DNA from: a virus
Direction: 5' to 3' (one strand)
Length of the DNA stretch: 26,761 nt
Virus record (IMG/VR): IMGVR_UViG_3300024252_000068
Span: 1-26,761 of that record
Shown: one piece after another, positions 13,454-26,761 of the stretch
How positions within the stretch are numbered: the stretch's first letter is position 1
How the letters are laid out: each line of letters opens with the position of its first letter
Translations under genes and position numbers: made by a program
Notes under the pieces: model-generated
Seen by the model: the letters and a program-made list of their open reading frames with translations, nothing else
Told to the model about the DNA's origin: nothing
Database searches by the model: none

Positions 13454-13678
13454 TCATCCATAATTATCCCATGCCGCACCATTGATGTCCTTTATGATGT
13501 TATAAAAACATCCTTCGCATACATATGCTTCCACCATCTGTAAATCATGCTCACTGAAATACCCAAATTCATGGGATAACTTAACTGGGTCATGATCGTT
13601 GGTGTATTCAATGCCACACTTATCACATTTAAACCCATTTGAAATCCATATCGCTTCTTCTTGATAGTTCACACCCAT
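13454..13678 (-). CDS. Small zinc-finger-like protein, 74 residues
   Basis: Two CxxC pairs (CDKC at 18-21 and CEGC near 54-57) could bind one zinc ion, in the pattern of a rubredoxin-like or ribbon knuckle. Otherwise unrecognised. Its ATG shares a base with the stop of the gene upstream (TAATG). Confidence 0.65.
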   Translation of the reverse strand: MGVNYQEEAIWISNGFKCDKCGIEYTNDHDPVKLSHEFGYFSEHDLQMVEAYVCEGCFYNIIKDINGAAWDNYG

Positions 13679-14112
13679 TATGCTACTAAGTCCAGATCAT
13701 TTTCAGTAATAATATATTCCGCTCCATCATATTGTTCTATTTTAAATTTTATACCGACCGGTAACCACTTAATAGTTAATCCATTAATGGCACCCAAACA
13801 TTCTTCACCCCACTTTAGATAGCAATAGGAAATAATTTGTTCTAGTACTAGATCGTGATTAGCTATTGGTTTATCTGCTGCTACTTCATCACGTTTTATA
13901 ATAAGTGCCACTAGCCCCAGATCAAACCTTGCATCAGTTCCTTGCCCACACCATCCAACACCATAACTCGTTGATATAATCACCGCAGTGTGGTCATCAA
14001 TGGTGTCCACTCCATCTAATATATCTTTTTCTTGTTGCGTGGGTTCGTGGTCATTTACCGCAACTAGTGTATCGCTAACTTTTACGGCTGGATTAAACAT
14101 CTCACCTATCAT
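13678..14112 (-). CDS. Hypothetical protein, 144 residues
   Basis: Unrecognised acidic protein, probably mixed alpha/beta, with no membrane helix or signal. A segment TSYGVGWCGQGTDARFDLGL is Gly-rich. It overlaps both neighbours (ATGA upstream, TAATG downstream), so it sits in a translationally coupled string. Confidence 0.6.
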   Translation of the reverse strand: MIGEMFNPAVKVSDTLVAVNDHEPTQQEKDILDGVDTIDDHTAVIISTSYGVGWCGQGTDARFDLGLVALIIKRDEVAADKPIANHDLVLEQIISYCYLKWGEECLGAINGLTIKWLPVGIKFKIEQYDGAEYIITENDLDLVA

Positions 14113-14330
14113 TCCCCTTCTCCTTTGTGCCTATGGTCGTAGAACTTAATGTCAATGCTGTGTTTGAGCAAATTTAAACTAAATTCAACCCCTGCGTGAT
14201 CGCCTGACCTAGTGCCAAACATCAAAAAGAGCCATTCATTGTATGCACTATAATCCCATTCCACTTCGATAGACTTATTGGTAGTTATATTGATATTAAA
14301 CCCATTCTTCCATTTAATCAGTCTTTTCAT
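14109..14330 (-). CDS. Hypothetical protein, 73 residues
   Basis: Start at ATG 14330 (MKRLIKWKNGF) with AGG seven bases before it; a start seven codons earlier is possible. It overlaps the phosphoesterase gene by 17 bases. Beta-rich sequence with SAYNEWLFLMFGTRSGDHAG and a basic, His-containing end (YDHRHKGEGE). No family recognised with confidence. Confidence 0.6.
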   Translation of the reverse strand: MKRLIKWKNGFNINITTNKSIEVEWDYSAYNEWLFLMFGTRSGDHAGVEFSLNLLKHSIDIKFYDHRHKGEGE

Positions 14331-14847
14331 ATTTATACCTATATATCTCATCCCCGTAAAAGGTTTTAACTCGTTCTTTTCTTTTATTTATTAATTCATC
14401 ATATGAAATAGGGGTATAGCTGATGTTCTCACAGCATACATTTTCATATCGGATATCATTAATCGTTGCAAAATGGACATGCCCATGAATATTCACTTTC
14501 CCACGCAATTCTACCGGGTGCATAGGTGAATGAGTCAACCAGAAAAACTTATACTTTACCATACCCTCAACTTGATCAAAACATTTTAGATATGCAGTGG
14601 TATCTAAATTGTCGTGATTGCCACGAATTAGTGTCTTACTACCATGTAAGCTATTAATAGTAGCAATGCCTTCCATTGTAAACACAGCATCGCCCAATAC
14701 ATACACCTTATCACGTTTGGTAACTTTGCTATTCCAACAGTCCACTATATATTCTCGATGTTCTGCTTCCGAACTAAATTGTGTTCTGAACGTATGGACA
14801 TTCTTATGCCCTATATGAAGGTCAGATATGAAAAATACTCTAGACAT
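14314..14847 (-). CDS. Calcineurin-like metallophosphoesterase
   Basis: A 177-residue protein with all metal-binding motifs: SDLHIGH (D9, H11), GD at 52-53, GNHD at 76-79, THSPMHP and a final HGHVH. These bind two metal ions and hydrolyse phosphomono- or diesters. Length and order match small YfcE-like or phage phosphoesterases. The first ATG shares bases with the stop of the coiled-coil gene (TAATG). A second, longer member of the same superfamily is at 20573-21421. Substrate unknown; RNA 2',3'-cyclic phosphate or nucleotide substrates are both possible. Confidence 0.9.
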   Translation of the reverse strand: MSRVFFISDLHIGHKNVHTFRTQFSSEAEHREYIVDCWNSKVTKRDKVYVLGDAVFTMEGIATINSLHGSKTLIRGNHDNLDTTAYLKCFDQVEGMVKYKFFWLTHSPMHPVELRGKVNIHGHVHFATINDIRYENVCCENISYTPISYDELINKRKERVKTFYGDEIYRYKYEKTD

Positions 14848-15197
14848 TACCAGAACCCACTATTGAAATATGTTGCTTCAAATATATTATTCACTGATTT
14901 AAATGCCTCTTTTAACTCACTGATTCGTTTTCGTTCTAATTTTAACTCAGTAGCTAATGTGCTAATCTTTTCCTCGTATGGTTTAGTTAATTTAGACTGT
15001 GATTTTGCCGTTGCAGTCCAAGTATTGTTAGCATTGTTCTGCAATACCCGAATCCGATCAGCTTGGTTTTCGATTGTTTCGCATGCTTCTTTAAGAAGTT
15101 TGGCTTCCTTCATTTTGCCTGCTTGTATAATCCACTCACCATCTTCTGAATTATAATGTTTTCTGATCTTTTCTGCAATTGGTTGTTTTGTGCTCAT
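14847..15197 (-). CDS. Coiled-coil protein, 116 residues
   Basis: A charged helical protein; residues about 25-55 (MKEAKLLKEACETIENQADR) and 70-105 (ISTLATELKLERKRISELKE) have the heptad pattern of coiled coils. It is the first gene of the leftward string that begins opposite the lipoprotein. No family recognised. No good sigma-70 promoter was found for it; the boxes TTGAAT and TAACAT upstream are weak. Confidence 0.65.
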   Translation of the reverse strand: MSTKQPIAEKIRKHYNSEDGEWIIQAGKMKEAKLLKEACETIENQADRIRVLQNNANNTWTATAKSQSKLTKPYEEKISTLATELKLERKRISELKEAFKSVNNIFEATYFNSGFW

Positions 15198-15230
15198 AAT
15201 ATTATGTTAACATAAAATACATACACATTC

Positions 15231-15252
15231 AATAAATAATTAGCAATAAATA
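15231..15252 (+). promoter_or_regulatory. Two tandem late promoter boxes before the lipoprotein gene
   Basis: AATAAATA occurs twice on the plus strand, at 15231-15238 and 15245-15252, 14 bases apart and just before the ATG at 15258. Both match the T4-type late box. The nearer one would give an almost leaderless transcript, so the first is the more likely promoter. Confidence 0.5.
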
Positions 15253-15257
15253 CACAT

Positions 15258-15473
15258 ATGAAATTAATTATTACCCTGATGTTGTTTACCCTCGTTGGCT
15301 GCACAAACTCACCTCGTATAGAAATATCAGAAGGTGTTATTATAATGGATCAAACAACATCAGATCGCGTGTTGGAATACATCAAGTTACTGCCCAGAAA
15401 TAATTCGTCCAGTGATGTGACCCCGCAGCATCAGCCATCAATGATATGGCCAAAAAAACAAAATTTTATCTAA
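15258..15473 (+). CDS. Small phage lipoprotein
   Basis: A 71-residue protein with a classic lipoprotein signal: MKLIITLMLF followed by the lipobox TLVGC, acylated Cys at position 15. The mature part is about 57 residues and Pro/Gln/Asn-rich near its end (PQHQPSMIWPKKQ). This size and composition fit an outer-membrane lipoprotein such as a Rz1-like o-spanin, but a matching inner-membrane spanin was not found, and other roles such as superinfection exclusion are equally possible. It is alone on the plus strand among minus-strand genes, and convergent with a membrane protein gene three bases away. Late boxes upstream suggest late expression. Confidence 0.75.
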   Translation: MKLIITLMLFTLVGCTNSPRIEISEGVIIMDQTTSDRVLEYIKLLPRNNSSSDVTPQHQPSMIWPKKQNFI

Positions 15474-15476
15474 CTA

Positions 15477-15665
15477 TTAGTAAACTCGTTTCTTCGGCTT
15501 GATACCCAGTGCTTCTTCTTTATAGAATTCCCAGGTTTTTTGCATTGCTTCGTTGACGGTCGATTCATCTTCAACGACCCACTCAACCAACCACATGAAT
15601 GGCATTATCCCTGTGAATATAGCAATTCCAACAATACGTTTAATTACCCATTTTACTTTACTCAT
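15477..15665 (-). CDS. Single-pass membrane protein, 62 residues
   Basis: A basic start (MSKVKWVIKR), a hydrophobic segment (residues 11-30, IVGIAIFTGIMPFMWLVEWV) and an amphipathic helical tail ending in KPKKRVY. AAAGGA lies before ATG. Convergent with the lipoprotein gene. Unknown function. Confidence 0.6.
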   Translation of the reverse strand: MSKVKWVIKRIVGIAIFTGIMPFMWLVEWVVEDESTVNEAMQKTWEFYKEEALGIKPKKRVY

Positions 15666-15681
15666 TTTAAATCCTTTTAAA

Positions 15682-16380
15682 TTATATCATACAACTAATT
15701 AATATATCCATCTCTTTCTGAAGTTTTTCTTTCTCTTCTTTGGTTTTTAATTCTTTGCTAAATTCATTCTTGTTCATATAATCCCATGGGGTATATGTTT
15801 CAAGCCCATACTCATTAAACCCCAAAAAATTAGCACCATCTCTGAAATTTTGCAATGACAACCCTTCGGTTGTATCCACTTCAAGCCATTTCACCTGTGG
15901 TGGTGTATCCATCTTACTCCAATTTACATATCCTGCGGGGTTTGAATCTGGGTCTATAGCAGTTTGGACATATTTATCAACATATTTACATGATGTATCA
16001 TCATCTACTATTAGGAAACGATCACCTTCTTCTGCCATATCACCAATTGTCCACCATACTTCACTGCCACGACCAGATGTTAATTTTCTCTGGGTTAGAA
16101 TATGGTCATCGTCTGCATATCTATTATTGAACTCCAACCCATTGTTCTTACAAATAGTTTTTAATTCTTCGGTAGTTTTATGCATGCACCAATTAGTACT
16201 AAAGATAATAGTAGCTTCCCCATATTTTGCCCACATATTATGAGCCCAAACAGAGAATTCGTCAAACTTGGTGTTAATACCATCCGCCTCACGGAATTTT
16301 AACTGATTTCGTGGAGTATATAATGATTTGCTTGCTAGTAGTGGTCCATCAAAATCTACTAATATATATGTTTTATTCAT
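15682..16380 (-). CDS. HAD-superfamily phosphatase-like protein
   Basis: A 232-residue protein. Motif I is VDFDGPLL (D9, D11), motif II is IIFSTNWC (Ser or Thr after a hydrophobic strand), and motif IV is FLIVDDDTS. This is the HAD core; the long insertion between motifs I and II and the form of motif II resemble the HAD domains found in phage RNA-repair and nucleotide-processing proteins, but this is tentative. HAD enzymes remove phosphates with an aspartyl intermediate. The last third is a charged helix (KELKTKEEKEKLQKEMD). The start overlaps the stop of the Tat-signal microprotein upstream. Confidence 0.75.
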   Translation of the reverse strand: MNKTYILVDFDGPLLASKSLYTPRNQLKFREADGINTKFDEFSVWAHNMWAKYGEATIIFSTNWCMHKTTEELKTICKNNGLEFNNRYADDDHILTQRKLTSGRGSEVWWTIGDMAEEGDRFLIVDDDTSCKYVDKYVQTAIDPDSNPAGYVNWSKMDTPPQVKWLEVDTTEGLSLQNFRDGANFLGFNEYGLETYTPWDYMNKNEFSKELKTKEEKEKLQKEMDILISCMI

Positions 16381-16531
16381 GTGAAAGATATCCCTCTGGT
16401 GTAGATACTGTAATTATCCCAGTGATAGTGTCAATCCATATATTCCCACCTGTTGCCAACACATCTACACTAAATGGCATTGCTAACAATGGTGTTCCTA
16501 TGATGCATTTCACGAAATCTCGCCTATTCAT
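16373..16531 (-). CDS. Microprotein with twin-arginine (Tat) signal peptide
   Basis: A 52-residue protein whose start MNRRDFVK matches the Tat consensus S/T-R-R-x-F-L-K, followed by a hydrophobic stretch (CIIGTPLLAMPFSVDVLA) with a plausible AxA-like cleavage site near VLATGG. The mature part would be only about 27 residues (GGNIWIDTITGIITVSTPEG...). GGAGG lies 9 bases before ATG 16531. It overlaps both neighbours (16524 and 16380) in the usual manner of this operon. Folded export of so small a product is unusual; it may remain as a membrane anchor. Function unknown. Confidence 0.65.
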   Translation of the reverse strand: MNRRDFVKCIIGTPLLAMPFSVDVLATGGNIWIDTITGIITVSTPEGYLSHE

Positions 16532-16802
16532 CTCCTAGTCCCTCCGTAGAACCAATTTCGTTGATATAATACTTATTCCCGACCAGTTTCATTTTACGGT
16601 GAACTATATCAGCCTCGTTGTTGGTAAGTGATTCGAATACCCCAATCACAGGACGTTGAACACTATTACACCGAGTACAAAAGCGAAATTCCCTCCATTC
16701 GCGGACGCATTCTTCACCTAAAAATTGGTATAACGTCTGTGTATATACATCTTCCCATTTGTGTGGTTTAAACCAAGCACACTTCATTTTACGTTTTATC
16801 AT
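16524..16802 (-). CDS. Hypothetical protein with one CxxC, 92 residues
   Basis: Basic start (MIKRKMKCAWFKPHKW), a CTRC pair (near residues 42-45) and an earlier CAWFKPH that could complete a zinc site. Unrecognised. Overlaps the RMF-like gene upstream by 14 bases. Confidence 0.6.
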   Translation of the reverse strand: MIKRKMKCAWFKPHKWEDVYTQTLYQFLGEECVREWREFRFCTRCNSVQRPVIGVFESLTNNEADIVHRKMKLVGNKYYINEIGSTEGLGDE

Positions 16803-16953
16803 TTAAAAATCCGATTAACCAACCTATATTCCATTCAGCCCACATTGTTGACATAATTGGATATGGATTAAGATCATACTTAGTACCACACTCATACATC
16901 GATTTGCCTACCGAGACAATTAATGTATCTTCTATGTGGGCTGATCTGTTCAC
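16789..16953 (-). CDS. Ribosome-modulation-factor-like microprotein, GTG start
   Basis: A 54-residue protein with GTG start at 16953 and GGA seven bases upstream. The end reads YDLNPYP, IMSTMW, then AEWNIGWLIGF, close to the CPY/NPYP...S/R...W..GW pattern of ribosome modulation factor, which parks 70S ribosomes as dimers. Other parts (the N-terminal 20 residues) do not match RMF, so this may be only a convergent small fold. If real, it is a second translation-related gene besides IF-1. It overlaps the next gene's start by 14 bases. Confidence 0.5.
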   Translation of the reverse strand: MNRSAHIEDTLIVSVGKSMYECGTKYDLNPYPIMSTMWAEWNIGWLIGFLNDKT

Positions 16954-16956
16954 TTT

Positions 16957-17193
16957 CTAATCCACATCAATATGATATCCCAACGAATCGAAATCATCAT
17001 CCATATCACAATCAGTGAAATCCACTATTGATGGGAAGTTGTCTTTAATGCAACTATCACTCCTCAGCCAATCGGTCACTTCTGGATATTGATCTTTTGC
17101 TGTTTCGAGTAAAGTGGTATCATACGCAATAATATGAATATCACCATTTCTGCCCTCAGCACTAACTAAGTTACTGTATTGTTCGGTGTTCAT
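16957..17193 (-). CDS. Hypothetical acidic protein, 78 residues
   Basis: Start at ATG 17193 (MNTEQYSNLVSAEG), overlapping the stop of the membrane protein gene as ATGA; an upstream in-frame start would run deep into that gene. The acidic tail reads DCDMDDDFDSLGYHIDVD. Three residues separate its end from the RMF-like start. Unknown. Confidence 0.6.
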   Translation of the reverse strand: MNTEQYSNLVSAEGRNGDIHIIAYDTTLLETAKDQYPEVTDWLRSDSCIKDNFPSIVDFTDCDMDDDFDSLGYHIDVD

Positions 17194-17378
17194 TCGCTTC
17201 TTTCTCTCCATCTGGTTATATATATATGATCCTTTATTATGAGCAGTCCCCACATCGATGATATTGAGAACCACAATAATCCATACATTGTAGGATCATT
17301 GGCGATTACAAAGGCGCAAAACACCTGAAATGCAAATACTAACAGTGTTAGCCATGAAATTAAATTTTCTTCATTCAT
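17190..17378 (-). CDS. Two-TM membrane protein, 62 residues
   Basis: Two hydrophobic segments (residues 7-26, ISWLTLLVFAFQVFCAFVIA, and 32-48, YGLLWFSISSMWGLLII) followed by a basic tail (RWRERSE). Both ends overlap their neighbours by 4 bases. Unknown function. Confidence 0.6.
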   Translation of the reverse strand: MNEENLISWLTLLVFAFQVFCAFVIANDPTMYGLLWFSISSMWGLLIIKDHIYITRWRERSE

Positions 17379-17725
17379 TTGTTATTCTCCGTGATGTATT
17401 TGTATAAATCATCAATTTTAGTAAGATCAGCTATTACATTATTGGCCGCATCATATATCAATGGTTTTATATGATCTAATTTATCAGTTCTAAATGAATT
17501 TTCTGGACCACACTCATATAACCACCATTGAACTACCTCTCCCATTTCGTCACCGAATAGATCATGCAACAACTGATCTTGTGCTAGCTGAAATTCTTCA
17601 GCAATGCCAGTAATAAAATAATTATCTGAATTTAACTCACGCAATGCATTTGAAAAAACTTTATCAGCCTTTCGTTGCAGTTGCATTCCATTGATCCAAA
17701 TTTTAAATGTTTTTAAGCTAATCAT
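17375..17725 (-). CDS. Hypothetical protein, 116 residues
   Basis: GGAGG nine bases before ATG 17725 fixes this start over one 10 codons earlier. Probably all-helical with aromatic residues (MGEVVQWWLYECGPENSF) and no signal or membrane segment. Unrecognised. Confidence 0.6.
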   Translation of the reverse strand: MISLKTFKIWINGMQLQRKADKVFSNALRELNSDNYFITGIAEEFQLAQDQLLHDLFGDEMGEVVQWWLYECGPENSFRTDKLDHIKPLIYDAANNVIADLTKIDDLYKYITENNK

Positions 17726-17726
17726 A

Positions 17727-17927
17727 TTACCAATCCTCCACACCTGAAATTTCATATTTTCGGATTAGTTTATATCCTTTTTCGTTATCCTCTACCTGGA
17801 CATGCAAGGTTGATCCAATTGCCCCTTCATCTTCTATTAAATCAATGCTTTCATAAAAATCAAATTTTGTTATGAAATCATGTAGTTGATGTATATCTTG
17901 TTTAGTTATTCTGATTTTGTTCTCCAT
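17727..17927 (-). CDS. Hypothetical protein, 66 residues
   Basis: Charged protein (MENKIRITKQDIHQLHDFIT...) with alternating acidic and basic stretches. One base after its stop the next ATG begins. Unrecognised. Confidence 0.55.
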   Translation of the reverse strand: MENKIRITKQDIHQLHDFITKFDFYESIDLIEDEGAIGSTLHVQVEDNEKGYKLIRKYEISGVEDW

Positions 17928-17928
17928 G

Positions 17929-18216
17929 TTAGCAAATTATTGGTCCACATCCCATTGGGCAATTCATATTAGTGCATACATATCCAGTAGTGCCGTTAAA
18001 CTCCATTCCACATTGGTTGCACACTGGGGGTGCAGATTTAAAAGTTGGGTTAGTTCCTTCTTTGTGGACCTGACCAGGTGGTGGAGTCGGATAATACAGG
18101 GGTATATTCTTATTCTCTAATTCTTCCAATCTAGCTTCTAATTCAGCAATTCGTTTAGCTTGTTGATCATCAACTACCATTAACTGTTCAAACAAATTAT
18201 ATTCTGTTTCTGTCAT
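17929..18216 (-). CDS. Coiled coil plus zinc-ribbon protein, 95 residues
   Basis: Residues about 15-40 form a short coiled coil (QQAKRIAELEARLEELENK), then a Pro-rich link (YYPTPPPGQ), then CNQC, CTNMNC and MGC in the last 30 residues, a zinc ribbon. This layout is common in small phage proteins that bind protein or nucleic acid; no specific function is known. Confidence 0.65.
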   Translation of the reverse strand: MTETEYNLFEQLMVVDDQQAKRIAELEARLEELENKNIPLYYPTPPPGQVHKEGTNPTFKSAPPVCNQCGMEFNGTTGYVCTNMNCPMGCGPIIC

Positions 18217-18234
18217 ATCAATCCCATATTAAAT

Positions 18235-18636
18235 TTAATTATCAAACCATATTATAACACGAAAATCGTCCAATGTATTGCCTTTCGCAAAAAATAATAA
18301 TTCGTCTATCCCCAACCATTCCCATATCAGTTCAGCGGTTGATTCAATATACCATGGTTCATTATCTTGGATTACTGCATCAATGAACTGTATAGCCGGC
18401 ATTGTTTTAATAGAATGCGCATCAGACCCCCATGCATCATACTCGTGTTTTGTGGTTTTAGAAACATCATCGGGTATAAAATAATCAGCGGATGCACCAT
18501 CGATGCTACCAGCACAGCGGACACCGGCTAACCTGCAAAAAATCTTATAGGCGCGATTCTGCCATTTTAATTCACTAACGTACTTCCATTTATTGAGTGA
18601 TTTAACTTCCACCGCACCGTGTATATCACACCCCAT
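18235..18636 (-). CDS. Conserved phage protein of the MGCDIH type, 133 residues
   Basis: The N-terminus MGCDIHGAVEVK, followed by RAYKIFCRLAGVR and YDAWGSDAHS, is characteristic of a conserved phage and prophage family; its function is unknown. The Cys and His residues at the start may bind a metal. It begins just after the frameshifted repeat gene. Confidence 0.7.
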   Translation of the reverse strand: MGCDIHGAVEVKSLNKWKYVSELKWQNRAYKIFCRLAGVRCAGSIDGASADYFIPDDVSKTTKHEYDAWGSDAHSIKTMPAIQFIDAVIQDNEPWYIESTAELIWEWLGIDELLFFAKGNTLDDFRVIIWFDN

Positions 18637-18804
18637 TATTGTAACTCATATTTAATGACCCAGTCTTATCTTGATCTGCCCATCTGTTGTCTTTCATAAT
18701 GTAAGGTGGTAGTTCCGCTTCTTCCAAACAACTTCTGGTATTTTAAACCTATCTCCATAGCCATCTAATGCCTCTGGTGTCGTGTGGTATCCGTATAAAT
18801 TCAT
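18626..18804 (-). pseudogene. Frameshifted member of the EAEPYIMKDP repeat family
   Basis: From ATG 18804 one frame gives MNLYGYHTTPEALDGYGDRF and KIPEVVW and stops at 18694; after one base step the other frame continues EEAELPPYIMKDNRWADQDK to a stop at 18626. Together they match the plus-strand repeat protein (leader ...TNPETLYGYKDRFEIP, then EEA...PYIMKD), and the DNA is also alike (GATAGGTTT and flanks). One base seems lost around GTTGTTTGG near 18725-18735. It holds only one repeat, so it is a decayed or truncated copy, unless the shift is programmed or a sequencing error. Confidence 0.65.
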
Positions 18805-18852
18805 TATTTTAGTGTCCCTGAAAATCTCACCTATTTAACCGACCAATTCTTA

Positions 18853-19128
18853 CTAATCTAGATCCTCTAATGAACAATTATTATCTTCCATTATAGAACG
18901 AATCTTATCACGTACCGCATCATACGCATCATACCCGTCACCCGTTAGTTCATCATTGTGCTTACATTCATTGCGCAACCATTGATCTAACTCCCACAAT
19001 GAACTCCAATAGTCATTCCAACTTACTACGGCTTTAGCTTCCTGTTCAGTTAAATTATCAAATGTTATTGATACGGTTTTTGTTTTTTCGTATAGTTCCA
19101 TTGGTACATTCCACATATGTTCACTCAT
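18853..19128 (-). CDS. Hypothetical acidic protein, 91 residues
   Basis: AGGAG seven bases before ATG 19128 decides the start (MSEHMWNVPMELYEKTK). It contains LTEQEAKAVVSWNDYWSS and an acidic tail (MEDNNCSLEDLD). It follows RNA ligase in the same direction. Unrecognised. Confidence 0.6.
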   Translation of the reverse strand: MSEHMWNVPMELYEKTKTVSITFDNLTEQEAKAVVSWNDYWSSLWELDQWLRNECKHNDELTGDGYDAYDAVRDKIRSIMEDNNCSLEDLD

Positions 19129-19150
19129 CTTCTTTCTCCTAATAACATTA

Positions 19151-20116
19151 TTAAAATCTTCCATCTATAATATTCAAAAAATTCACCCTAATAAGGTTCG
19201 CCACGTCTTTATTTAATTGTGATGTAATTGTCTTTTGATCTTTCTTAGCTAACGGATAAAACTCATTTTCTTTACCCCAATCTTCTAGTATATCCACAGC
19301 AACGGCCTTTAATAACAAACCAAAGTCGAATTGTGTTATCGTACCTAGCTTGCTAATAGCACTTCTAATACGATTCTCATTATTATATTGTGAAAGTATA
19401 GCATAGACAGCATTCATCTCATCAGACCAAGATTGGGTTTTTCTTGTTTTCTTTTTATCTGATTTCTCTTTATATTTTTCACTCTTATTTTTAATAATTA
19501 CACGACCACCATTTCCTAGGTATAATACTTTGCTAGGTTTCAGAACTGTGCCTTCCGCAAAGTTTTCATCTTCCCAGTCTTGGTGTATTGTACTTTTGAA
19601 AGTCGGAGATACTAACATTGCATCAGTAAACGATAAATTTAGGGCTAAAATAGGAACAAGTGGTATCCCAAATTCAGTACAGTAATCTCTAACTACATCT
19701 GGATCTAAATAAAATGACATCTCATCGGTTGTTTCGATTCTAATATCAAATGCTTTGAAATCTTTTTCACCATAGTAAACCCTATTTTGAATCCCTTCAC
19801 CACACAGTTCACCAAAAATTTGTACAGTATCAATCTCAATTCCTGTTATCTTGATGCAGGTTGCCATTGCCAACGCAATATCTTTATATTTTTCAAAAAC
19901 TGCTTGACTTCCAAAAAATGCTGAATCTGTAATACATGACCGTTTTGCCGGTCTAACCTCATTCGTTAGTATATCAACAACAAATGAATAATTACTACCA
20001 TCAATTTTTTCACTTACTTCCCAAGTCACATTATTGAATTGATCATGGTTTTTGACATGATCTATAAATTCTTCACGATAGCCGTTTTCAATACCACTGT
20101 ACTTTCTAAATTTCAT
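19151..20116 (-). CDS. rnl2: RNA ligase 2 (Rnl2 type)
   Basis: A 321-residue protein from ATG 20116, with AGGA nine bases upstream; a start 7 codons earlier is less likely because family members begin here (MKFRKYSGIEN, like T4 FKKYSSLEN). Motifs in order: I, EKIDGSN with the nucleophile K37; III, IFGELCGEGIQ; IIIa, FKAFDIRI; IV, AEGTVLKP; V, VIIKNKSEKYKEK. The C-terminal helical domain (about 230-320) that contacts the RNA 3' side is present. T4 Rnl2 is 334 residues, so this is full length. It seals nicks in double-stranded RNA, using ATP. The gene overlaps its upstream neighbour by 11 bases. Role: RNA repair or editing; in T4 its biological task is unclear. Confidence 0.92.
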   Translation of the reverse strand: MKFRKYSGIENGYREEFIDHVKNHDQFNNVTWEVSEKIDGSNYSFVVDILTNEVRPAKRSCITDSAFFGSQAVFEKYKDIALAMATCIKITGIEIDTVQIFGELCGEGIQNRVYYGEKDFKAFDIRIETTDEMSFYLDPDVVRDYCTEFGIPLVPILALNLSFTDAMLVSPTFKSTIHQDWEDENFAEGTVLKPSKVLYLGNGGRVIIKNKSEKYKEKSDKKKTRKTQSWSDEMNAVYAILSQYNNENRIRSAISKLGTITQFDFGLLLKAVAVDILEDWGKENEFYPLAKKDQKTITSQLNKDVANLIRVNFLNIIDGRF

Positions 20117-20351
20117 CTGGTGTTTTCCTACTAGCATAATATGATGCTACTTGCACAGCTTGTTCTAAAAACCCTATACTTTCGATTGTCGGCAAACAAT
20201 TTGCAATTTCAGAAGCATTCCATAACAATGTTTTGTTATCTACTTTAGCAGGATCACCTTCAAATACAAAGCCTGGACACCGTTCCTTAATCAGATTGAT
20301 ACTTGCTGATATGTTAATAGTATCATTGTATAGTAAACCAGTAATATTCAT
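20106..20351 (-). CDS. Hypothetical protein, 81 residues
   Basis: Unrecognised soluble protein (MNITGLLYNDTINISASINL...). Two bases separate its start from the stop of the coiled-coil gene, and its end overlaps RNA ligase 2, so it is probably co-translated with it. Confidence 0.6.
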   Translation of the reverse strand: MNITGLLYNDTINISASINLIKERCPGFVFEGDPAKVDNKTLLWNASEIANCLPTIESIGFLEQAVQVASYYASRKTPDEI

Positions 20352-20353
20352 AT

Positions 20354-20533
20354 CTATTCATCCGTGTGTAATTTTAGCAATTCATCCGTGTGTAATTTTA
20401 GCAATTCATCCACCTTTGAACTGAGTGTTGACAATAATTCCGTGTTCTGATTTGTCCGATCTATTAATGTATTCAGCGTCACTTCTAACTGAGTGTCGTG
20501 ATCTCGTAGCTTAAACTTGTCTTGTGTTATCAT
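20354..20533 (-). CDS. Coiled-coil microprotein with duplicated C-terminus, 59 residues
   Basis: A predicted protein MITQDKFKLRDHDTQLEVTL..., with a helical end TLSSKVDELLKLHT repeated in part as DELLKLHT. No clear ribosome binding site; a sigma-70-like promoter is so close (TACAAT 20545-20540) that the mRNA may be almost leaderless. The start is at ATG 20533. It is short but has a sensible coiled-coil composition. Confidence 0.6.
   Translation of the reverse strand: MITQDKFKLRDHDTQLEVTLNTLIDRTNQNTELLSTLSSKVDELLKLHTDELLKLHTDE
20356..20411. repeat. 24-base tandem duplication inside the coiled-coil gene
   Basis: Two exact copies (20356-20379 and 20380-20403) and the first 8 bases of a third. 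Length is a multiple of three, so the gene gains DELLKLHT without a frameshift. Identity of the copies points to a recent slip. Confidence 0.9.
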
Positions 20534-20539
20534 TTATGT

Positions 20540-20568
20540 ATTGTAGCATAATAATGATATAATTGCAA
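20540..20568 (-). promoter_or_regulatory. Sigma-70-like promoter for the coiled-coil/RNA ligase genes
   Basis: Minus-strand TTGCAA (20568-20563) and TACAAT (20545-20540) separated by 17 bases, in the gap after the phosphoesterase gene. It would start transcription near the ATG at 20533 and serve the following genes including RNA ligase 2. Confidence 0.5.
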
Positions 20569-20572
20569 TAAA

Positions 20573-21421
20573 TTAGATTTCAACTACTAAATCTAAACTA
20601 CATTTACTATTTGTTTCAGTATTTAAATAACCAAATGGATTACATATAACCCTAGTATCTTCTATCATATAATCACTTGAATTATGTGCATGCCCATGCA
20701 ACCACAAAGTAATATCCTTTGTTGATATCCAATTATCTAAATTACTTACGAATGCAGCATTAAGCATATCACCTGCATATAATGGATGAACACTTAGATA
20801 TGAAGGCAGATGATGTGATACTACGACATTTTTCTCGGATTTAAAGTCCCTAAGAACAACATTCATCCATTCTAATGTTTTCTTATGTTCATCTACGGTT
20901 CTGCGTGGGGTTATCCAGTATTTGCCATATTCTTCCCGATCAGCCGCATTACGCATATGTTCATTGGTGGATTCTGCACTATTTAATGAATCTTGGATAT
21001 CCATTGTGGTGATACGAAAATCATTCATTCGTTGTTTGGCATACTCCATTGCTACATTATTATAATCTTGAAAATCAGTCCATAAAATGCCGCCAAGAAA
21101 TGTAGTATCACCGTTCACATATGTTATACCATCATCTAGAAATTGAACACCCTCATCTGCCAATACAGTAGCATTATCATACCATTGTTGGCGAATGTAA
21201 TCCATATTTTTATTATAAAAGGAATGATTGCCTAATACGAATACTACTGGTTTGCCATGATCTTGTGTTAGTTGTTTGCAGAAATTAACTTCATTTTCAT
21301 AACCAACATCAATATCACCTGCCAAAACAATTACATCTGCATCTGTCTGTGGGATGGTTGGTGCATTATTGGCATTTCGCCAAAACTCACAATGCGTATC
21401 ACTTATTGGTTGTATTTTCAT
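20573..21421 (-). CDS. Calcineurin-like metallophosphoesterase (large)
   Basis: A 282-residue protein with SDTHCEF at 7-13, AGDIDVG near 34-40, GNHSFY, VSHHLPS and LHGHAH, the complete motif set binding two metal ions. The length and the GNHSFY variant fit the YpbG/Icc-like phage and bacterial group of metallophosphoesterases, probably acting on a small phosphodiester or nucleotide. The start at 21421 is preceded by three AAGGAAT copies within the 10-base repeat. A TATAAATA late box lies 52 bases upstream, after the terminator of the RNA gene. Substrate unknown. Confidence 0.88.
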   Translation of the reverse strand: MKIQPISDTHCEFWRNANNAPTIPQTDADVIVLAGDIDVGYENEVNFCKQLTQDHGKPVVFVLGNHSFYNKNMDYIRQQWYDNATVLADEGVQFLDDGITYVNGDTTFLGGILWTDFQDYNNVAMEYAKQRMNDFRITTMDIQDSLNSAESTNEHMRNAADREEYGKYWITPRRTVDEHKKTLEWMNVVLRDFKSEKNVVVSHHLPSYLSVHPLYAGDMLNAAFVSNLDNWISTKDITLWLHGHAHNSSDYMIEDTRVICNPFGYLNTETNSKCSLDLVVEI

Positions 21422-21423
21422 CG

Positions 21424-21460
21424 TTATATTCCTTTATATTCCTTTATATTCCTTTATATA
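21424..21460. repeat. Three-copy 10-base tandem repeat in the leader of the phosphoesterase gene
   Basis: TTATATTCCT is repeated three times and then partly. On the minus strand each copy reads AGGAATATAA with a Shine-Dalgarno core; the copy nearest the ATG is correctly spaced, the others would be additional ribosome docking sites. Number of copies could vary by slippage. Confidence 0.8.
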
Positions 21461-21472
21461 TCAACCAATTGG

Positions 21473-21480
21473 TATTTATA
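21473..21480 (-). promoter_or_regulatory. Late promoter box (TATAAATA)
   Basis: Perfect T4-type late box on the minus strand, starting at the last base of the terminator T-run, 52 bases before the phosphoesterase ATG. It would restart transcription after the RNA gene's terminator. Confidence 0.6.
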
Positions 21481-21514
21481 AAAATGCCATCCTAGTTTAT
21501 ACACCCGGATGGCA
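21480..21514 (-). terminator. Rho-independent terminator of the candidate small RNA
   Basis: On the minus strand TGCCATCC (21514-21507), a 14-base loop, GGATGGCA (21492-21485), then TTTTT (21484-21480). An 8-bp GC-rich stem followed directly by a T-run is the standard form. Confidence 0.85.
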
Positions 21515-21716
21515 GAGTGGAGGTTGAGTGCTGAAACTATTTTAAGGGTTATTCTGACTAAAATTGTCATAAGAAACCCACCAGTCCGATGTAACTGTGT
21601 TGACTAAACACTCTCTTTCGACATCAGATGGCGTTGATTCACCTTTTCAGCTAGGCAGTTAGTCAGACATCTTTATCTTTAACTACAACCATTTCTTTAT
21701 ATTAACTAATGTCTGC
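21480..21716 (-). ncRNA. Candidate free-standing small RNA, about 235 bases
   Basis: Bounded by a perfect sigma-70 promoter (21723-21751) and a terminator (21480-21514). The minus strand holds only tiny reading frames; the longest (ATG near 21571) would run through the terminator stem. Two structured parts can be drawn by hand: GGCAGTTAGT (21654-21663) with ACTAA/CTGCC (21705-21717), which competes with CAGACAT (21664-21670) with ATGTCTG (21709-21715); and a nested stem 21582-21632, with CCA/TGG outside, GATGT (21589-21593) with ACATC (21622-21626), and GTGTT-gacta-AACAC (21598-21612) inside. It does not look like a tRNA, tmRNA or any riboswitch that I could recognise. The start of transcription is inferred at 21716-21718. 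Confidence 0.65.
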
Positions 21717-21722
21717 CCAAAT

Positions 21723-21751
21723 ATTATACTACTATTTCATTGATTTGTCAA
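21723..21751 (-). promoter_or_regulatory. Perfect consensus sigma-70 promoter
   Basis: Minus-strand TTGACA (21751-21746) and TATAAT (21728-21723) with exactly 17 bases between, both 6/6. It reads into a gap with no gene. It is the strongest promoter by sequence in this window. Confidence 0.9.
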
Positions 21752-21765
21752 GCTACTAATCATAT

Positions 21766-22080
21766 TCAATATTCTTTGGATAACCGTTCCCATATCTTTG
21801 CTTTTTCAATCTCATCAGTGTATTTTTTATGCAAGATTGTACTTTCTGCGACCCTAGTAACCAATTCAGCCACACATCCCTCGTATATATCAACGAGGTG
21901 CGGAAATTTAACCTCTAAATCAACATCACGAACTGGCAACCCTAATAATTGTTCAATAATACATAAGCGATCTTCTAAATCACGACCATTTAAATCTAAC
22001 ACCCCATTTACGTGCAGCGCAGGTGATCCATCATTGATGTTTTGGAGTCCGGTGATAACCATTGTTTCCAGTGTTTCCAT
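21766..22080 (-). CDS. Conserved phage protein, 104 residues
   Basis: The central motif DRLCIIEQLLGLPVRDVDLE followed by KFPHLVDI is typical of small proteins common in marine T4-like phages (pattern RLxxIExxLxIPxRDxxLExKYPxL); their function is unknown. The end is helical and charged (EIEKAKIWERLSKEY). It is the last gene before the sigma-70 promoter of the RNA locus. Confidence 0.7.
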   Translation of the reverse strand: METLETMVITGLQNINDGSPALHVNGVLDLNGRDLEDRLCIIEQLLGLPVRDVDLEVKFPHLVDIYEGCVAELVTRVAESTILHKKYTDEIEKAKIWERLSKEY

Positions 22081-22082
22081 TG

Positions 22083-22322
22083 TTAGCGATCCTGCTGTTT
22101 GATATACTCAATAATATTAAACCCCATTAAATTAGCGGTATCTTGGATACGAGAGACTGAATTTTTTGCAATAAAATAAACAATCATTAATATCAATGAT
22201 TCCATTACTAATAAATTATTATACTGTAATGTTATTACCGACACAACTAATATTGCCAACATTGATAGCGATTTTGTGAATTTAAATAATAACCAATCAC
22301 GCACTAGTAATTCTTTATTCAC
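22083..22322 (-). CDS. Two-TM membrane protein, 79 residues
   Basis: Two hydrophobic segments (about 18-35 and 37-53; LSMLAILVVSVITLQ and LLVMESLILMIVYFIA) followed by a charged cytoplasmic tail (IEYIKQQDR). It overlaps the gene upstream by 4 bases. Unknown. Confidence 0.6.
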   Translation of the reverse strand: MNKELLVRDWLLFKFTKSLSMLAILVVSVITLQYNNLLVMESLILMIVYFIAKNSVSRIQDTANLMGFNIIEYIKQQDR

Positions 22323-22621
22323 AGCACTAACCCTTTAACTATCATATACTGATCAATCGCATCCATTACATGATCGTGTGCATCTCTTAATGGCACATTG
22401 GTTGGATTATCCAGTATATCTCGTTGAAACATATTCGGTTTGGTAATTATAGATCCATTTTGTACTGCCAATACTCCATCTTCGTGCGATGCTACGTTTA
22501 AACTAAATAAATCAATAGCAGGTGATGATACTAATGAAATATAGGGAATCGCCACTGACGCACCATTCACGTACTCAGTGCGAGGATTGATACTTAATGC
22601 GGGATCGTCTGATAATATCAT
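22319..22621 (-). CDS. Hypothetical protein, 100 residues
   Basis: Unrecognised; a beta-rich start and a helical end (DAHDHVMDAIDQYMIVKGLVL) with acidic and His residues. Overlaps the next gene as ATGA. Confidence 0.6.
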   Translation of the reverse strand: MILSDDPALSINPRTEYVNGASVAIPYISLVSSPAIDLFSLNVASHEDGVLAVQNGSIITKPNMFQRDILDNPTNVPLRDAHDHVMDAIDQYMIVKGLVL

Positions 22622-22655
22622 CCGTTATCCTTTGTAAAATTAATCATAGTGACTA

Positions 22656-23309
22656 TTATACTCTATTATGTGCAAGCACATCAATTTCCTCAAACTGCAA
22701 GGAAGTATCATCACCTGTATTGCCACGTACCAATGCACTACTAGCTATATCATTAACAACAGAAACTAAGTCATCCGTAGTTTTTACCGAATCTAATTTT
22801 GGATAATGCATTCGTGTGATATTGTGCTTTAATCCATGCTCCTTGCCAACTGCTGTATATTCCCTAATATATCCCTCAATTGTTTGCAACTGGCGACGAT
22901 AAGTTGCTATTTCTTGTTGTTTTTTGCGAATGATACTAACATACTCACTAGTATGCCGTGAACTATCCTCCCAAATCCCAGTAAAGTATTTAATTGCATT
23001 GCTTACCTTATCTTCGTTTAGATGCTGATCAATGTAATAGTCAAATTCAATGGTTGAATATACATACACCCCATTAACTATTACCACAAAAACAACACAG
23101 TTATCTTCGTTATCGTGTTCATATGCATACTCCAATGTGTGGTTATGATCATCCCAATATCGTTCATCAAATAATACATGCACACCAATACCAGGACGAT
23201 TAATAACATCCCCTACACGCCATGCATCTAACATTTTTCCAAATCGTTTAGTTTGCACCTCGTGTTCTGTTCCTTCGCACTCTACATAAAAACTATCAAA
23301 CATTCCCAT
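22656..23309 (-). CDS. Conserved phage protein of the MGMFDSFYV type, 217 residues
   Basis: The start MGMFDSFYVECEGTEHEVQT and the following TK...DAWRVGDVI are a known pattern of conserved phage proteins of unknown function; in many, CxxC pairs occur where this has E-C-E-G. The centre (residues about 130-155, IIRKKQQEIATYRRQLQTIE) is a coiled coil. AAGGAAG lies 6 bases before the ATG. No catalytic motif was seen. Confidence 0.7.
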   Translation of the reverse strand: MGMFDSFYVECEGTEHEVQTKRFGKMLDAWRVGDVINRPGIGVHVLFDERYWDDHNHTLEYAYEHDNEDNCVVFVVIVNGVYVYSTIEFDYYIDQHLNEDKVSNAIKYFTGIWEDSSRHTSEYVSIIRKKQQEIATYRRQLQTIEGYIREYTAVGKEHGLKHNITRMHYPKLDSVKTTDDLVSVVNDIASSALVRGNTGDDTSLQFEEIDVLAHNRV

Positions 23310-23451
23310 GATTTTCTTCCTTTATTTTATATTCAGCTAACCTATTATATAACATATCCTTCTGGATTTCATTGCTATGTTCTAAGATATGCAGAAATAT
23401 TTGCCATTTTTCATTGACATTAATGGTCTCAGCATATAAATAAAAAATCAA
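23296..23451 (-). CDS. Possible small protein with uncertain or frameshifted start
   Basis: A frame ending at 23296 (TGA inside the next gene's start) gives 51 residues from a TTG at 23451 (LIFYLYAETINVNEKWQIFL, then HILEHSNEIQKDMLYNRLAE). The frame stays open further up with protein-like content (KEKAQWDLKKL) but no start codon. A GTG with AAGGAG eight bases before it lies in another frame and would join this one if the T6 run near 23443 were T5. So this is either a frameshifted gene or a gene with a rare start. Confidence 0.4.
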   Translation of the reverse strand: MIFYLYAETINVNEKWQIFLHILEHSNEIQKDMLYNRLAEYKIKEENHGNV

Positions 23452-23459
23452 TAACTTCT

Positions 23460-23552
23460 TCAGATCCCACTGTGCTTTCTCCTTAATGTTACAACTTTTT
23501 GTGGCAATTCGATCACAAGTAAATATATCACTATCGTTACACTAAATGCCAT
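23460..23552 (-). CDS. Possible 30-residue membrane peptide
   Basis: ATG 23552 opens a frame MAFSVTIVIYLLVIELPQKV followed by a basic tail (VTLRRKHSGI), one membrane helix with positive tail. No good ribosome binding site at the right distance. It fills the gap between two real genes; it may be real or chance. Confidence 0.4.
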   Translation of the reverse strand: MAFSVTIVIYLLVIELPQKVVTLRRKHSGI

Positions 23553-23563
23553 TACTATGTCTG

Positions 23564-23941
23564 CTACTGTTCCTTGCAATTCTTTATCTCCTTTTTTGCT
23601 TCTTTTAATACAGCAATTAAGCCATCAATATTATTACTATCCACTACAAAATCAGAATGAAATTCTATATAGCCTTTGAATGCCAATTCCCAAATGCCAT
23701 TGATCCTGTTAAGTATACTATTTACCCAATGAATGCGAGTAGGGGTTTTCCACCATTTAGTTTTAAGAGTTTGAAAAAATTGCAATTCTACCATACCTGG
23801 CATATCAGCATCTTTGTTAGTGGTTATCCATGCATTAATATTATGGTCGGCTGCCATGCAACTACATTGTGTAACAAATGTTATAGTACCATCATCCCAT
23901 TCCTTGACTTTAGATGTCATTGGGTATCCAAATTTATCCAT
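23564..23941 (-). CDS. Hypothetical protein, 125 residues
   Basis: Unrecognised; aromatic-rich (WWKTPTRIHWVNSILNRING) with a helical, Lys-rich end (IAVLKEAKKEIKNCKEQ). The start overlaps the membrane protein upstream by 8 bases. Confidence 0.6.
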   Translation of the reverse strand: MDKFGYPMTSKVKEWDDGTITFVTQCSCMAADHNINAWITTNKDADMPGMVELQFFQTLKTKWWKTPTRIHWVNSILNRINGIWELAFKGYIEFHSDFVVDSNNIDGLIAVLKEAKKEIKNCKEQ

Positions 23942-24242
23942 ATAATGCTACTCCTAAGAACATAGAGGAATAATATAACATAGTTCCAATTGAATACATT
24001 AGCATCCATGAAATAACAGTTATACTGCCTTTTATCCAATACCCCTCATCATTGTATTCAGCCAACGATAGCCTAGATGATCCTCTCCATTGCAAATATG
24101 GAATACCAAGCCACATTAAACACGCTAATTTAGACAATGGTGACCCATCATAACGTTCCCCGATAACAGTATTAATCATCCCAATAACCCATACACTACT
24201 AATTGCCGCTGCTATAGTTAATAACCCATATATTGTATTCAT
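23934..24242 (-). CDS. Membrane protein, 102 residues
   Basis: Hydrophobic segments at about 5-25 (YGLLTIAAAISSVWVIGMI), 38-50 and 72-100 (SITVISWMLMYSIGTMLYYS). Probably three membrane helices with a loop containing SSRLSLAEYNDEG. Unknown function. Confidence 0.6.
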   Translation of the reverse strand: MNTIYGLLTIAAAISSVWVIGMINTVIGERYDGSPLSKLACLMWLGIPYLQWRGSSRLSLAEYNDEGYWIKGSITVISWMLMYSIGTMLYYSSMFLGVALYG

Positions 24243-24243
24243 T

Positions 24244-24435
24244 TTATGTTTGTCCTTTTGTATCGTGTTCTACCCATCCTGTATCTCCATCTATTTTATC
24301 TACCCAATCACCTAATAATACCAGAATTAACCCGATTATCCCATAAACCCCACCATGCAACAACACCAGTGCAATTCCACCAATCCATGCCATATATGAT
24401 AGATATTTTAATTTACCTTTCTTAACTAACGCCAT
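24244..24435 (-). CDS. Small membrane protein, 63 residues
   Basis: Basic start (MALVKKGKLKYL), a hydrophobic stretch (MAWIGGIALVLLHGG, then VYGIIGLILVLLGDW) that could be one or two helices, and an acidic tail. One base separates it from the next membrane gene. Unknown. Confidence 0.6.
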   Translation of the reverse strand: MALVKKGKLKYLSYMAWIGGIALVLLHGGVYGIIGLILVLLGDWVDKIDGDTGWVEHDTKGQT

Positions 24436-24445
24436 TGCATAATCC

Positions 24446-24733
24446 TCATATACTACCTCCCATTTTTCCTAATGTGGTTACAATCTTACGAATGCAACCA
24501 TATACTGCTGCATCAGGTGTGCTTTCATTGTCTGATTTAACTTCAAATGTTATCCCGTCTCCACTAACAAACATATCTATTTTACAATACCAATAACTTT
24601 CAATATATGATGTTTTTGTTAATAACGGATCACCAAATAATCCCAAATCGGTTAACATCTGATTTAAATTCGTACCTGTGCCATCAATTGCTGATGCTGA
24701 TACATGTTTTTTAAGTTTGTCTAGGTCTTTCAT
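24446..24733 (-). CDS. Hypothetical protein, 95 residues
   Basis: Unrecognised; the helical, Lys-rich start (MKDLDKLKKHVSASAIDGTG) is followed by a beta-rich middle (YWYCKIDMFVSGDGITFEV). It overlaps the upstream zinc-ribbon gene as ATGA. Confidence 0.6.
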   Translation of the reverse strand: MKDLDKLKKHVSASAIDGTGTNLNQMLTDLGLFGDPLLTKTSYIESYWYCKIDMFVSGDGITFEVKSDNESTPDAAVYGCIRKIVTTLGKMGGSI

Positions 24734-25080
24734 TTGTTACGTTCCCTACATTTAGGACAATAACTATCGCTACCTTCAGCCATTAACAATGCCCCACATA
24801 TGCTACATGTGTTTTCATTCACCGTGATATCCAATACGGCCGATGTATGATCAACTACACTGTACCCTTCATCGGAATGGGTATCATTTATTTCATACAA
24901 TGATGCTAATTCATCTGAGTGAATGGTTATTGCTAGATCATCATGCCATATGTAATAATCCATAAACTCTCCCGATGCGTCTTCGTTATATACACGAAAA
25001 ATTGGGGTACCAGTTATATTAAAAATTAATACACCAGATAATCCATTTGCCGGTCGTTCATTCTCGTATGTGACTGTCAT
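24730..25080 (-). CDS. Protein with C-terminal zinc ribbon, 116 residues
   Basis: A beta-rich body with DYYIWHDDLAITIHSDE, then CSIC and CPKC near the end (NTCSICGALLMAEG, SYCPKCRERNK), a rubredoxin-like zinc knuckle. Unknown partner. Overlaps its neighbours by 4 bases each. Confidence 0.65.
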   Translation of the reverse strand: MTVTYENERPANGLSGVLIFNITGTPIFRVYNEDASGEFMDYYIWHDDLAITIHSDELASLYEINDTHSDEGYSVVDHTSAVLDITVNENTCSICGALLMAEGSDSYCPKCRERNK

Positions 25081-25457
25081 TGGCTAATATTCTTATTGTA
25101 TAATGCCTGTGTAGTTGCATTGTCCTTGCAAATCCCACATTTTTCACCAGCAGACACTAGTAATTCTTTACAAGATTGACACCAATCCCACCCATCAGTG
25201 GTTATTTGATGTTCACCTGGTCCATTATTGCAATTAACCCCGCATTCTTTCACCTGATCCCACAATAAAGTAAAGGACTCCATCTCCCAATCACCCCGCC
25301 CCAAATAATCACAATACCCATTCTCTTGTTTGGGTTTACCATCACGGATAGACCAGTACTTACATACATTCGTTCGCATTCTACCAGTTTCTTTCTCTAT
25401 TGATTCAATCGTATAGCAGTACCATCCAACAGGTATTTGGTCTTCTGGTTTACTCAT
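25077..25457 (-). CDS. Cys-rich conserved phage protein, 126 residues
   Basis: Start ATG 25457 (MSKPEDQIPVGWYCYTIESI), overlapping the upstream stop; a longer start 5 codons earlier is possible. The pattern PVGWYCYT...CKYWS...QENGYCDYLGRGDWE...LLWDQVKECGVN is conserved in phages of several types. The end adds WCQSC and CGIC, a likely zinc site. Function unknown. Confidence 0.7.
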   Translation of the reverse strand: MSKPEDQIPVGWYCYTIESIEKETGRMRTNVCKYWSIRDGKPKQENGYCDYLGRGDWEMESFTLLWDQVKECGVNCNNGPGEHQITTDGWDWCQSCKELLVSAGEKCGICKDNATTQALYNKNISQ

Positions 25458-25716
25458 GCAATACATATACATTCACGAGCTGTTTAAACATAACAGCAGA
25501 TATATTATGATCCATCTTTGTCCACTCATCGTTGATATCAATTTCACAAAAATCGTTACATACTCTAAGAGATAGCAATGAAATTACTTGTTTATATTTA
25601 ATGGTAGCATCGAAATAGTCACAAGTATCCACCGACCCTGTAAAATCCACATTAATATCAAAATCCGAATCTAGTAGCATTTCCACCTTTTTTGTGATTC
25701 TCTTTAAATATTTCAA
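25450..25716 (-). CDS. Hypothetical protein, 88 residues
   Basis: Basic start (MKYLKRITKKVEMLL), acidic centre with TCDYFDATIKY and a beta-rich rest. Overlaps both neighbours. Unrecognised. Confidence 0.6.
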   Translation of the reverse strand: MKYLKRITKKVEMLLDSDFDINVDFTGSVDTCDYFDATIKYKQVISLLSLRVCNDFCEIDINDEWTKMDHNISAVMFKQLVNVYVLHE

Positions 25717-26003
25717 CGCATTAACTCCATGCTTGTAATTTTAGAAAATGATTCAATAAAGTTTTCTTCATCGCTGATAATATATGCCTCGGTTCGTACT
25801 TGGTCATCATACTTGTTTACACCATTTCCATGTGGTTTGTCGCGTTTAGTATACTCAATAATTTTGCCGCCAGTTGCCGCACGGACATTAATTCTTAATC
25901 CATAGTTAGGAAAGTCACTGGTACTCACAGGTGAGTCACCCATTGTATTTTTGTCATCAAGAGTTCCTAGTTTATGTTTAAGCCATTTAAATATCATCTT
26001 CAT
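25713..26003 (-). CDS. Conserved phage protein, 96 residues
   Basis: GGAG seven bases before ATG 26003 fixes the start (MKMIFKWLKHKLGTLDD), rather than a start 54 codons earlier deep within the SGNH gene. The central YGLRINVRAATGGKIIEYTK and the end AYIISDEENFIESFSKITSM follow a pattern common in marine T4-like phages (beta strand, ATGG, acidic IISD). Function unknown. Confidence 0.65.
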   Translation of the reverse strand: MKMIFKWLKHKLGTLDDKNTMGDSPVSTSDFPNYGLRINVRAATGGKIIEYTKRDKPHGNGVNKYDDQVRTEAYIISDEENFIESFSKITSMELMR

Positions 26004-26652
26004 TATCATTCTCCATATACTCAATAACCAACTCTGCAATTTTTTTATGACCCAACTCATTGGGGTGATGTAAATTACCGTCAAAGAACTTACCTTTAAA
26101 TGTAGCGTTTGGACCATCATCACCAATCTCAAGATCATACTGATGCGCAAATGCATTATCTCCATTTAACATATCAGTTAGACTATGTTTGGTTGATAAG
26201 ATATATCTATCATCTATTAAATTATCATACCTTATCTCCAATCGCCCATAATTGTGCATCAACACGAACTTACACCCAATTGATCTTAACACCATAATAA
26301 TATTAATTATAAAAAGATTATGATGATAGATAAACCACTCGCTAGTTTTGCCTGTCTTCATAAATTTTTCCCATTCACCATCAAAATTGCCTATGGTCTT
26401 CCACCTACCCTCCGTCTCTGTATACCACCTGACATCAGGTGGTATAACTACAGTTACTATATCAGAACTAGATATTATGTTACTGTTATCTAATAACATT
26501 TTGGTTACTAACCCTAATGACATTCCGTTTTTGCTATAATTAATATATTCGCAATTATAATGATGTGATAACCAATAAACAAAAGGGAATTCAGTTTTGC
26601 TATCTAATTCAGCACCAGCACCCCAACTATCACCAAAGCAAACGATCTTCAT
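25987..26652 (-). CDS. SGNH/GDSL hydrolase
   Basis: A 221-residue protein. Block I is CFGDSWGAG with nucleophile S9, and the end has FFDGNLHHPNELGHKKIAE, the DGxxHP block V with H196 and an upstream Asp (D191). The usual block II Gly and block III GxND are weaker (YSKNGMSLG and VTVVIPPDVRW), as is common in phage members. The family removes acyl groups from lipids or sugars. The ATG overlaps the stop of the partial gene upstream as ATGA. A more divergent SGNH protein is at 12229-13071. Confidence 0.8.
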   Translation of the reverse strand: MKIVCFGDSWGAGAELDSKTEFPFVYWLSHHYNCEYINYSKNGMSLGLVTKMLLDNSNIISSSDIVTVVIPPDVRWYTETEGRWKTIGNFDGEWEKFMKTGKTSEWFIYHHNLFIINIIMVLRSIGCKFVLMHNYGRLEIRYDNLIDDRYILSTKHSLTDMLNGDNAFAHQYDLEIGDDGPNATFKGKFFDGNLHHPNELGHKKIAELVIEYMENDNEDDI

Positions 26653-26761
26653 TTTTCTTCCTCCTTTTTCTCTTCTTTTTCTTTTCGAAATTGGTTAATA
26701 GTTTCTAGATCATAGTCATATCGATCATTATGTTCACAAAACTGTTTGATTTCTTCTGGTG
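26649..26761 (-). CDS. Acidic-basic C-terminal part of a protein, start beyond window
   Basis: The minus strand is open from the window edge to TGA 26649-26651, giving about 36 residues, PEEIKQFCEHNDRYDYDLE followed by a highly charged tail (RKEKEEKKEEEK). The N-terminus is outside. It overlaps the SGNH start by 4 bases. Nothing more can be said. Confidence 0.6.
   Translation of the reverse strand, partial: PEEIKQFCEHNDRYDYDLETINQFRKEKEEKKEEEK

Follow-up and report, generated by a model that had tools for sequence, protein, structure and literature searches.

The DNA analysed here, called the window, is a stretch of 26,761 bases from an IMG/VR virus record. It was found to encode a GroEL, an RNA ligase 2 type ligase, two phosphoesterases, a SegE-type GIY-YIG endonuclease and a protein with a baseplate/tail-fibre connector match; judged by this gene content, the window fits a fragment of a T4-like myovirus. 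According to our own gene list 93% of positions 2217-26652 are coding, and the largest gap between genes, 344 nt at 21422-21765, holds no plausible gene. It is flanked upstream by a gene for a 104-aa protein of unknown family (21766..22080, minus strand) and downstream by a gene for a calcineurin-like metallophosphoesterase of 282 aa (20573..21421, minus strand). Another gap, 279 nt at 15198-15476, contains a plus-strand ORF; this ORF (15258-15473, +) codes for 71 aa starting MKLIITLMLFTLVGC with a lipoprotein-type signal, is located inside a block of minus-strand genes and is possibly a spanin. A 78-bp repeat in 7.7 copies (8218-8826) was seen within the plus-strand ORF 7854-8858.

The minus strand of the large gap carries a sigma-70 consensus promoter (21723..21751) with TTGACA at 21751-21746 and TATAAT at 21728-21723, separated by a 17-base spacer, and the two 6/6 boxes described in a sequence-only reading of this DNA are indeed present. 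A tool scan was made of 12000-26761 and a script scan of the entire window on either strand; the latter revealed no other site that matches the consensus in 12/12 positions, in agreement with the earlier description of the site as the strongest promoter in a region where almost every base is coding. Under a first-order Markov model 0.09 perfect promoters are expected by chance per window with spacers of 16-18 bases, and ~0.03 with a spacer of 17 alone. Weaker promoter-like matches amounted to 85 in the window compared to 79 ± 9 in shuffled sequences, and therefore it is the perfect site that carries the evidential weight.

The use of such promoters was surveyed in 1.97 Mb of loci from other viral records, mostly large phages with related GroEL or phosphoesterase genes. 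This set contains 104 distinct perfect promoters, nearly all of them on the strand of the query gene (plus), which corresponds to a density of ~1 per 19 kb; at the composition of the window, ~1 per 290 kb would be expected. An ORF of at least 50 aa starts within 250 nt of 99 of the 104 promoters. Since four of the other five lead to tRNAs (the fifth is without assignment), a perfect promoter without an ORF usually marks an RNA gene in these large phages, the class being small (n = 5), and the survey thus yields a practical rule: in such phages, an ORF-less perfect sigma-70 promoter points to an RNA gene. The promoter of the window has no ORF behind it and belongs to this class, but its RNA is not a tRNA. 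Like the window locus, the units in L020/L021 and L094 have a perfect TTGACA/TATAAT promoter facing an RNA gene; they contain tRNAs, whereas ARAGORN and Rfam find none at the window locus. At the L020/L021 site, one of the four that lead to tRNAs, a folded stretch of ~290 nt is transcribed ahead of the tRNA. In L021, from a 342-kb phage, this strongly folded RNA (14268-14556, +; z -3.7) is located between the perfect promoter (14234) and a tRNA-Ser, and it matched neither Rfam nor phage records.

Downstream of the promoter, the interval is closed by an intrinsic terminator (21485..21514, minus strand) with the layout TGCCATCC-14 nt-GGATGGCA followed by TTTTTAT, and the 8-bp hairpin with a T-run (here five Ts) that had been read at this end is therefore real. 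Three inner pairs reduce its loop to 6, and the element folds with -17.2 kcal/mol compared to -6.7 ± 2.4 kcal/mol in shuffles (z -4.4). The standard scan missed the terminator because the loop limit of the scanner is 8; a scan with longer loops found it. ORFs of at least 20 aa wholly or mostly within the RNA interval do not exceed 57 aa. The transcript strand offers just two candidates: a 9-codon ORF, MVVVKDKDV, near the 5' end of the RNA, with a ribosome site that looks poor in the sequence, and an ORF of 38 aa that extends through and past the terminator. The claim of about 235 bases without a plausible gene thus holds. From the promoter and terminator positions, the fold and the coding potential, we predict a non-coding RNA of ~235-238 nt (21480..21717, minus strand) that starts with a G at 21716-21718 and ends in the T-run.

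The stretch 21717-21475 folds with -64.7 kcal/mol compared to -50.6 ± 4.4 kcal/mol after shuffling (z -3.2), and none of 200 shuffles was as good. Much of this score derives from the terminator; the RNA without it, started at 21716, gave a z of -1.5. The 5' hairpin domain (21654..21717, minus strand) can form two mutually exclusive stems. Folding of growing transcripts showed that these are true alternatives, as had been proposed: CAGACAU/AUGUCUG (-9.0 kcal/mol) forms at 56-60 nt and is replaced from 64 nt on by forms closed by GGCAG/CUGCC (-12.3 kcal/mol). The 5' hairpin alone is no more stable than shuffles (z -0.7). The nested central hairpin of the sequence-only reading was found as well, but as a component of a larger three-way-junction domain (21530..21651, minus strand), in which the stem GCUGAAA/UUUCAGC closes a junction with one long and one shorter hairpin; the domain has 37 pairs in total. 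This domain, the basis of model R1, folds with -33.7 kcal/mol compared to -22.9 ± 3.6 kcal/mol in shuffles (z -3.0). Since this value contrasts with those of the 5' hairpin and of the RNA without terminator, the junction domain would be the part of the RNA most likely under selection, and support for the 5' part is weak.

A covariance-model search against Rfam 15 placed the locus in no family at the gathering score; down to an E of 10 only matches of the eukaryotic snoRNA type and other chance matches appeared, so that even permissive thresholds reveal no known family. ARAGORN detected neither a tRNA nor a tmRNA, and 6S RNA and RNase P were likewise unmatched in Rfam. Similarity to 175 phage tRNAs was no longer than 11 nt, and a tRNA-Ser-like stretch on the opposite strand, GATGGCAGAGTGG, has no cloverleaf and the same best match of 11 nt, indicating chance. 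A hammerhead ribozyme was also considered (CUGAUG-UC-GAAA) and rejected: there is no A after CUGAUG, no stem II and no Rfam hammerhead at E 10. Homologues of the RNA were found neither by a DNA search of phages and plasmids, nor with two exact patterns in viral contigs, nor with two exact 20-mers in prokaryote genome contigs, nor through the neighbouring proteins. A structure-plus-sequence covariance model, the reach of which is limited because it was built from a single sequence, found none in ~1 Mb of loci and 33 whole records. The weak matches in these searches were short (~14-43 nt) and judged to be chance. Four contigs of the same species (L002-L005), 99.8% identical in the overlap, all end short of the RNA locus, and for this reason the absence of homologues is strong just for distant relatives. 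As no homologue was found, there is neither covariation to draw on nor a sign of selection.

In sum, the locus combines a promoter, a terminator, the lack of a plausible ORF and a better-than-random fold, and the relatives that were examined show no connection of such an RNA with the phosphoesterase (see below). It is likely a free-standing RNA gene with a host-type promoter and terminator. This part of the sequence-only reading is borne out by the anatomy and by the use of perfect promoters in related phages, but its suggestion that the product mimics a host RNA found no support, with Rfam, the 175 phage tRNAs, plasmids and prokaryote contigs all lacking a meaningful match. Judged by its sequence, the product is a credible candidate for a new, orphan phage small RNA that has no known family or detectable relative.

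How might such an RNA act? Between the junction domain and the terminator lies a G-free, CU-rich linker of 15 nt, ACUCAACCUCCACUC (21515..21529, minus strand), a candidate pairing region that contains ACCUCC, as in the anti-Shine-Dalgarno sequence of 16S rRNA. Its mean unpaired probability was 0.95-0.98 when the transcript began at 21717 or 21718, and 0.76 when 21716 was taken as the start. From this composition and exposure, we infer that the linker may pair in trans. On balance, we regard it as somewhat more likely than not that the phage has a self-contained RNA gene here whose structured RNA of ~235 nt regulates in trans via this linker, with the phosphoesterase as a separate unit. Host RNA polymerase with the main sigma factor would transcribe the RNA and, since the promoter is a perfect host-type one, would probably do so from the start of infection; the early timing is suggested by the promoter type, and the RNA may be abundant. 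Transcription would stop at the intrinsic terminator, and the junction body and the terminator hairpin would protect and present the unpaired linker, which could then pair with purine-rich Shine-Dalgarno regions of mRNAs, probably those of the host. Pairing of the linker with translation starts or Shine-Dalgarno regions in the window was not enriched (431 of 500 shuffled linkers were at least as good), and therefore targets, if any, would be located in the host or in other parts of the phage genome. Whole-RNA duplexes with translation starts in the window were no better than shuffled ones in a test that permitted unrealistically long loops. A single pairing, that of UGGUUGUAGUU in the RNA with AAAUACAACCA at the phosphoesterase start (10/11 pairs), was rejected because the whole-RNA duplex is weaker than most shuffles.

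A linker-based regulator has two main rivals, a decoy for a protein and a unit that is functionless or decaying. In the former case, the RNA would not be an antisense regulator but a structured decoy by which a host protein, for example a nuclease, an RNA chaperone or a defence sensor, is bound and titrated. Its mostly compact junction fold and the lack of a pairing target in the window are consistent with such a role, but it matches no known protein-binding RNA family and a binding partner cannot be named; we consider a decoy rather unlikely. A decayed or lineage-specific remnant, whose promoter and terminator work while the RNA is functionless or encodes a short peptide, is doubtful to the same degree. 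The searches without a homologue, the z of only -1.5 without the terminator and the 9-codon ORF near the 5' end argue for it. On the other hand, a phage with such dense coding has kept a perfect promoter together with a strong terminator, and the junction domain folds clearly better than shuffles; in addition, a good ribosome site is missing from the 9-codon ORF, and the 38-aa ORF does not end before the terminator but runs through it.

Somewhat less probable still is that the transcript is the attenuator leader of the phosphoesterase gene, in which a conditional terminator and a 5' switch or junction sense a signal for read-through. The layout invites this reading: the RNA is on the same strand, its terminator precedes the gene, as in riboswitch-type attenuators, at 64 nt upstream of the start codon, and the 5' stems are mutually exclusive. 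However, the minimum-energy and centroid folds contain no anti-terminator pairing with the terminator arms, no Rfam riboswitch matches, and the phosphoesterase probably has a promoter of its own past the terminator. Where the terminator tail ends, it overlaps with TATAAATA (21473..21480, minus strand), the octamer named as the T4 late promoter (PMC3014915), which is located 52 nt before the start codon of the phosphoesterase. The window contains no excess of this octamer, but its use at this gene is supported by a copy upstream of the gene 3676-5361 that is kept in relatives; it is of the T4 late type and likely drives the phosphoesterase separately from the RNA. Between it and the gene, a three-fold 10-bp repeat, TATAAAGGAA (21424..21459, minus strand), provides three Shine-Dalgarno-like sites, and a pairing of 6-8 bp between the phosphoesterase leader and the first codons could enclose all three.

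The comparison with other phosphoesterase loci also bears on attenuation. A tblastn search, which gave 80 loci, identified L109 as the nearest relative (59% aa identity). There, a promoter is located directly upstream of the phosphoesterase gene, the other upstream genes differ and some synteny is kept among the genes downstream; the RNA is absent upstream of the phosphoesterase and elsewhere on the contig. In 15 more distant homologues, inspection of ~200 upstream bases by eye revealed no comparable leader, and a DNA search of the loci gathered for this comparison gave no match to the RNA. Because of the separate TATAAATA promoter and the missing leader in L109 and in the 15 distant homologues, an attenuator of a conserved operon is unlikely; a lineage-specific attenuator may exist.

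Returning to the linker-based regulator, its boldest version would make the RNA the first example of a novel family of phage RNAs that act early. On a folded scaffold, these would expose a copy of the 16S rRNA anti-Shine-Dalgarno core, ACCUCC, and would use it during takeover to block mRNAs of the host or to disturb ribosome binding; we consider this a long shot. Very improbable is a promoter that serves the DNA, with the transcript priming replication as an R-loop and the RNA having no further function: in T4, R-loops at the origins serve to initiate replication (PMC3016281), and a strong promoter that faces no coding sequence would be in keeping with this, but the GC skew is unchanged at 21.5 kb and a primer needs neither an efficient terminator nor a folded product.

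Small RNAs without an assigned function are known from T4. RNAC and RNAD are encoded in the tRNA region of T4 and their role is unknown (PMC3014915). The RNA described here differs from RNAC and RNAD in its location and layout: it forms a unit of its own, has a separate promoter and terminator and lies away from any tRNA. According to a review from 2010, no small trans-acting regulatory RNA of T4 had been functionally characterised, and candidates might come to light in the genomes of phages related to T4 (PMC3014915). The RNA of the window qualifies as one: its boundaries are unusually clear and it has a specific candidate pairing region; it is a well-delimited, single instance in a phage group where such RNAs are poorly known. 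Small regulatory RNAs of the proposed kind are encoded by other phages: PreS of lambda and VpdS of the temperate phage VP882 act in trans, depend on Hfq and have demonstrated targets (PMC12197685). In contrast, the RNA of the window is known from its sequence alone and has no known sequence relation to them. Further structured non-coding RNAs, GOLLD and ROOL, occur in phages. These ornate RNAs are large and form homo-oligomeric complexes (PMC12286853), whereas the RNA of the window has only ~235 nt and matches no Rfam family.

The second copy of the late promoter is part of a separate arrangement. Upstream of the gene 3676-5361, which encodes the SegE-type GIY-YIG endonuclease, a 16-bp hairpin (5362-5407, minus strand) hides the ribosome site, and TATAAATA is located in its loop; therefore, only late transcripts would expose the ribosome site of the endonuclease. 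The arrangement is kept in L007 at ~7930-7980 (CATAAATA; stem GCCCTCAAG/CTTGAAGGC with one mismatch) and on the reverse strand of L008 at ~5500-5560 (TATAAATA; stem TTTACCCTC/GAGGGTAAA), with changed stem bases in both, and it matches the style of control of I-TevI and mobE (PMC3014915).
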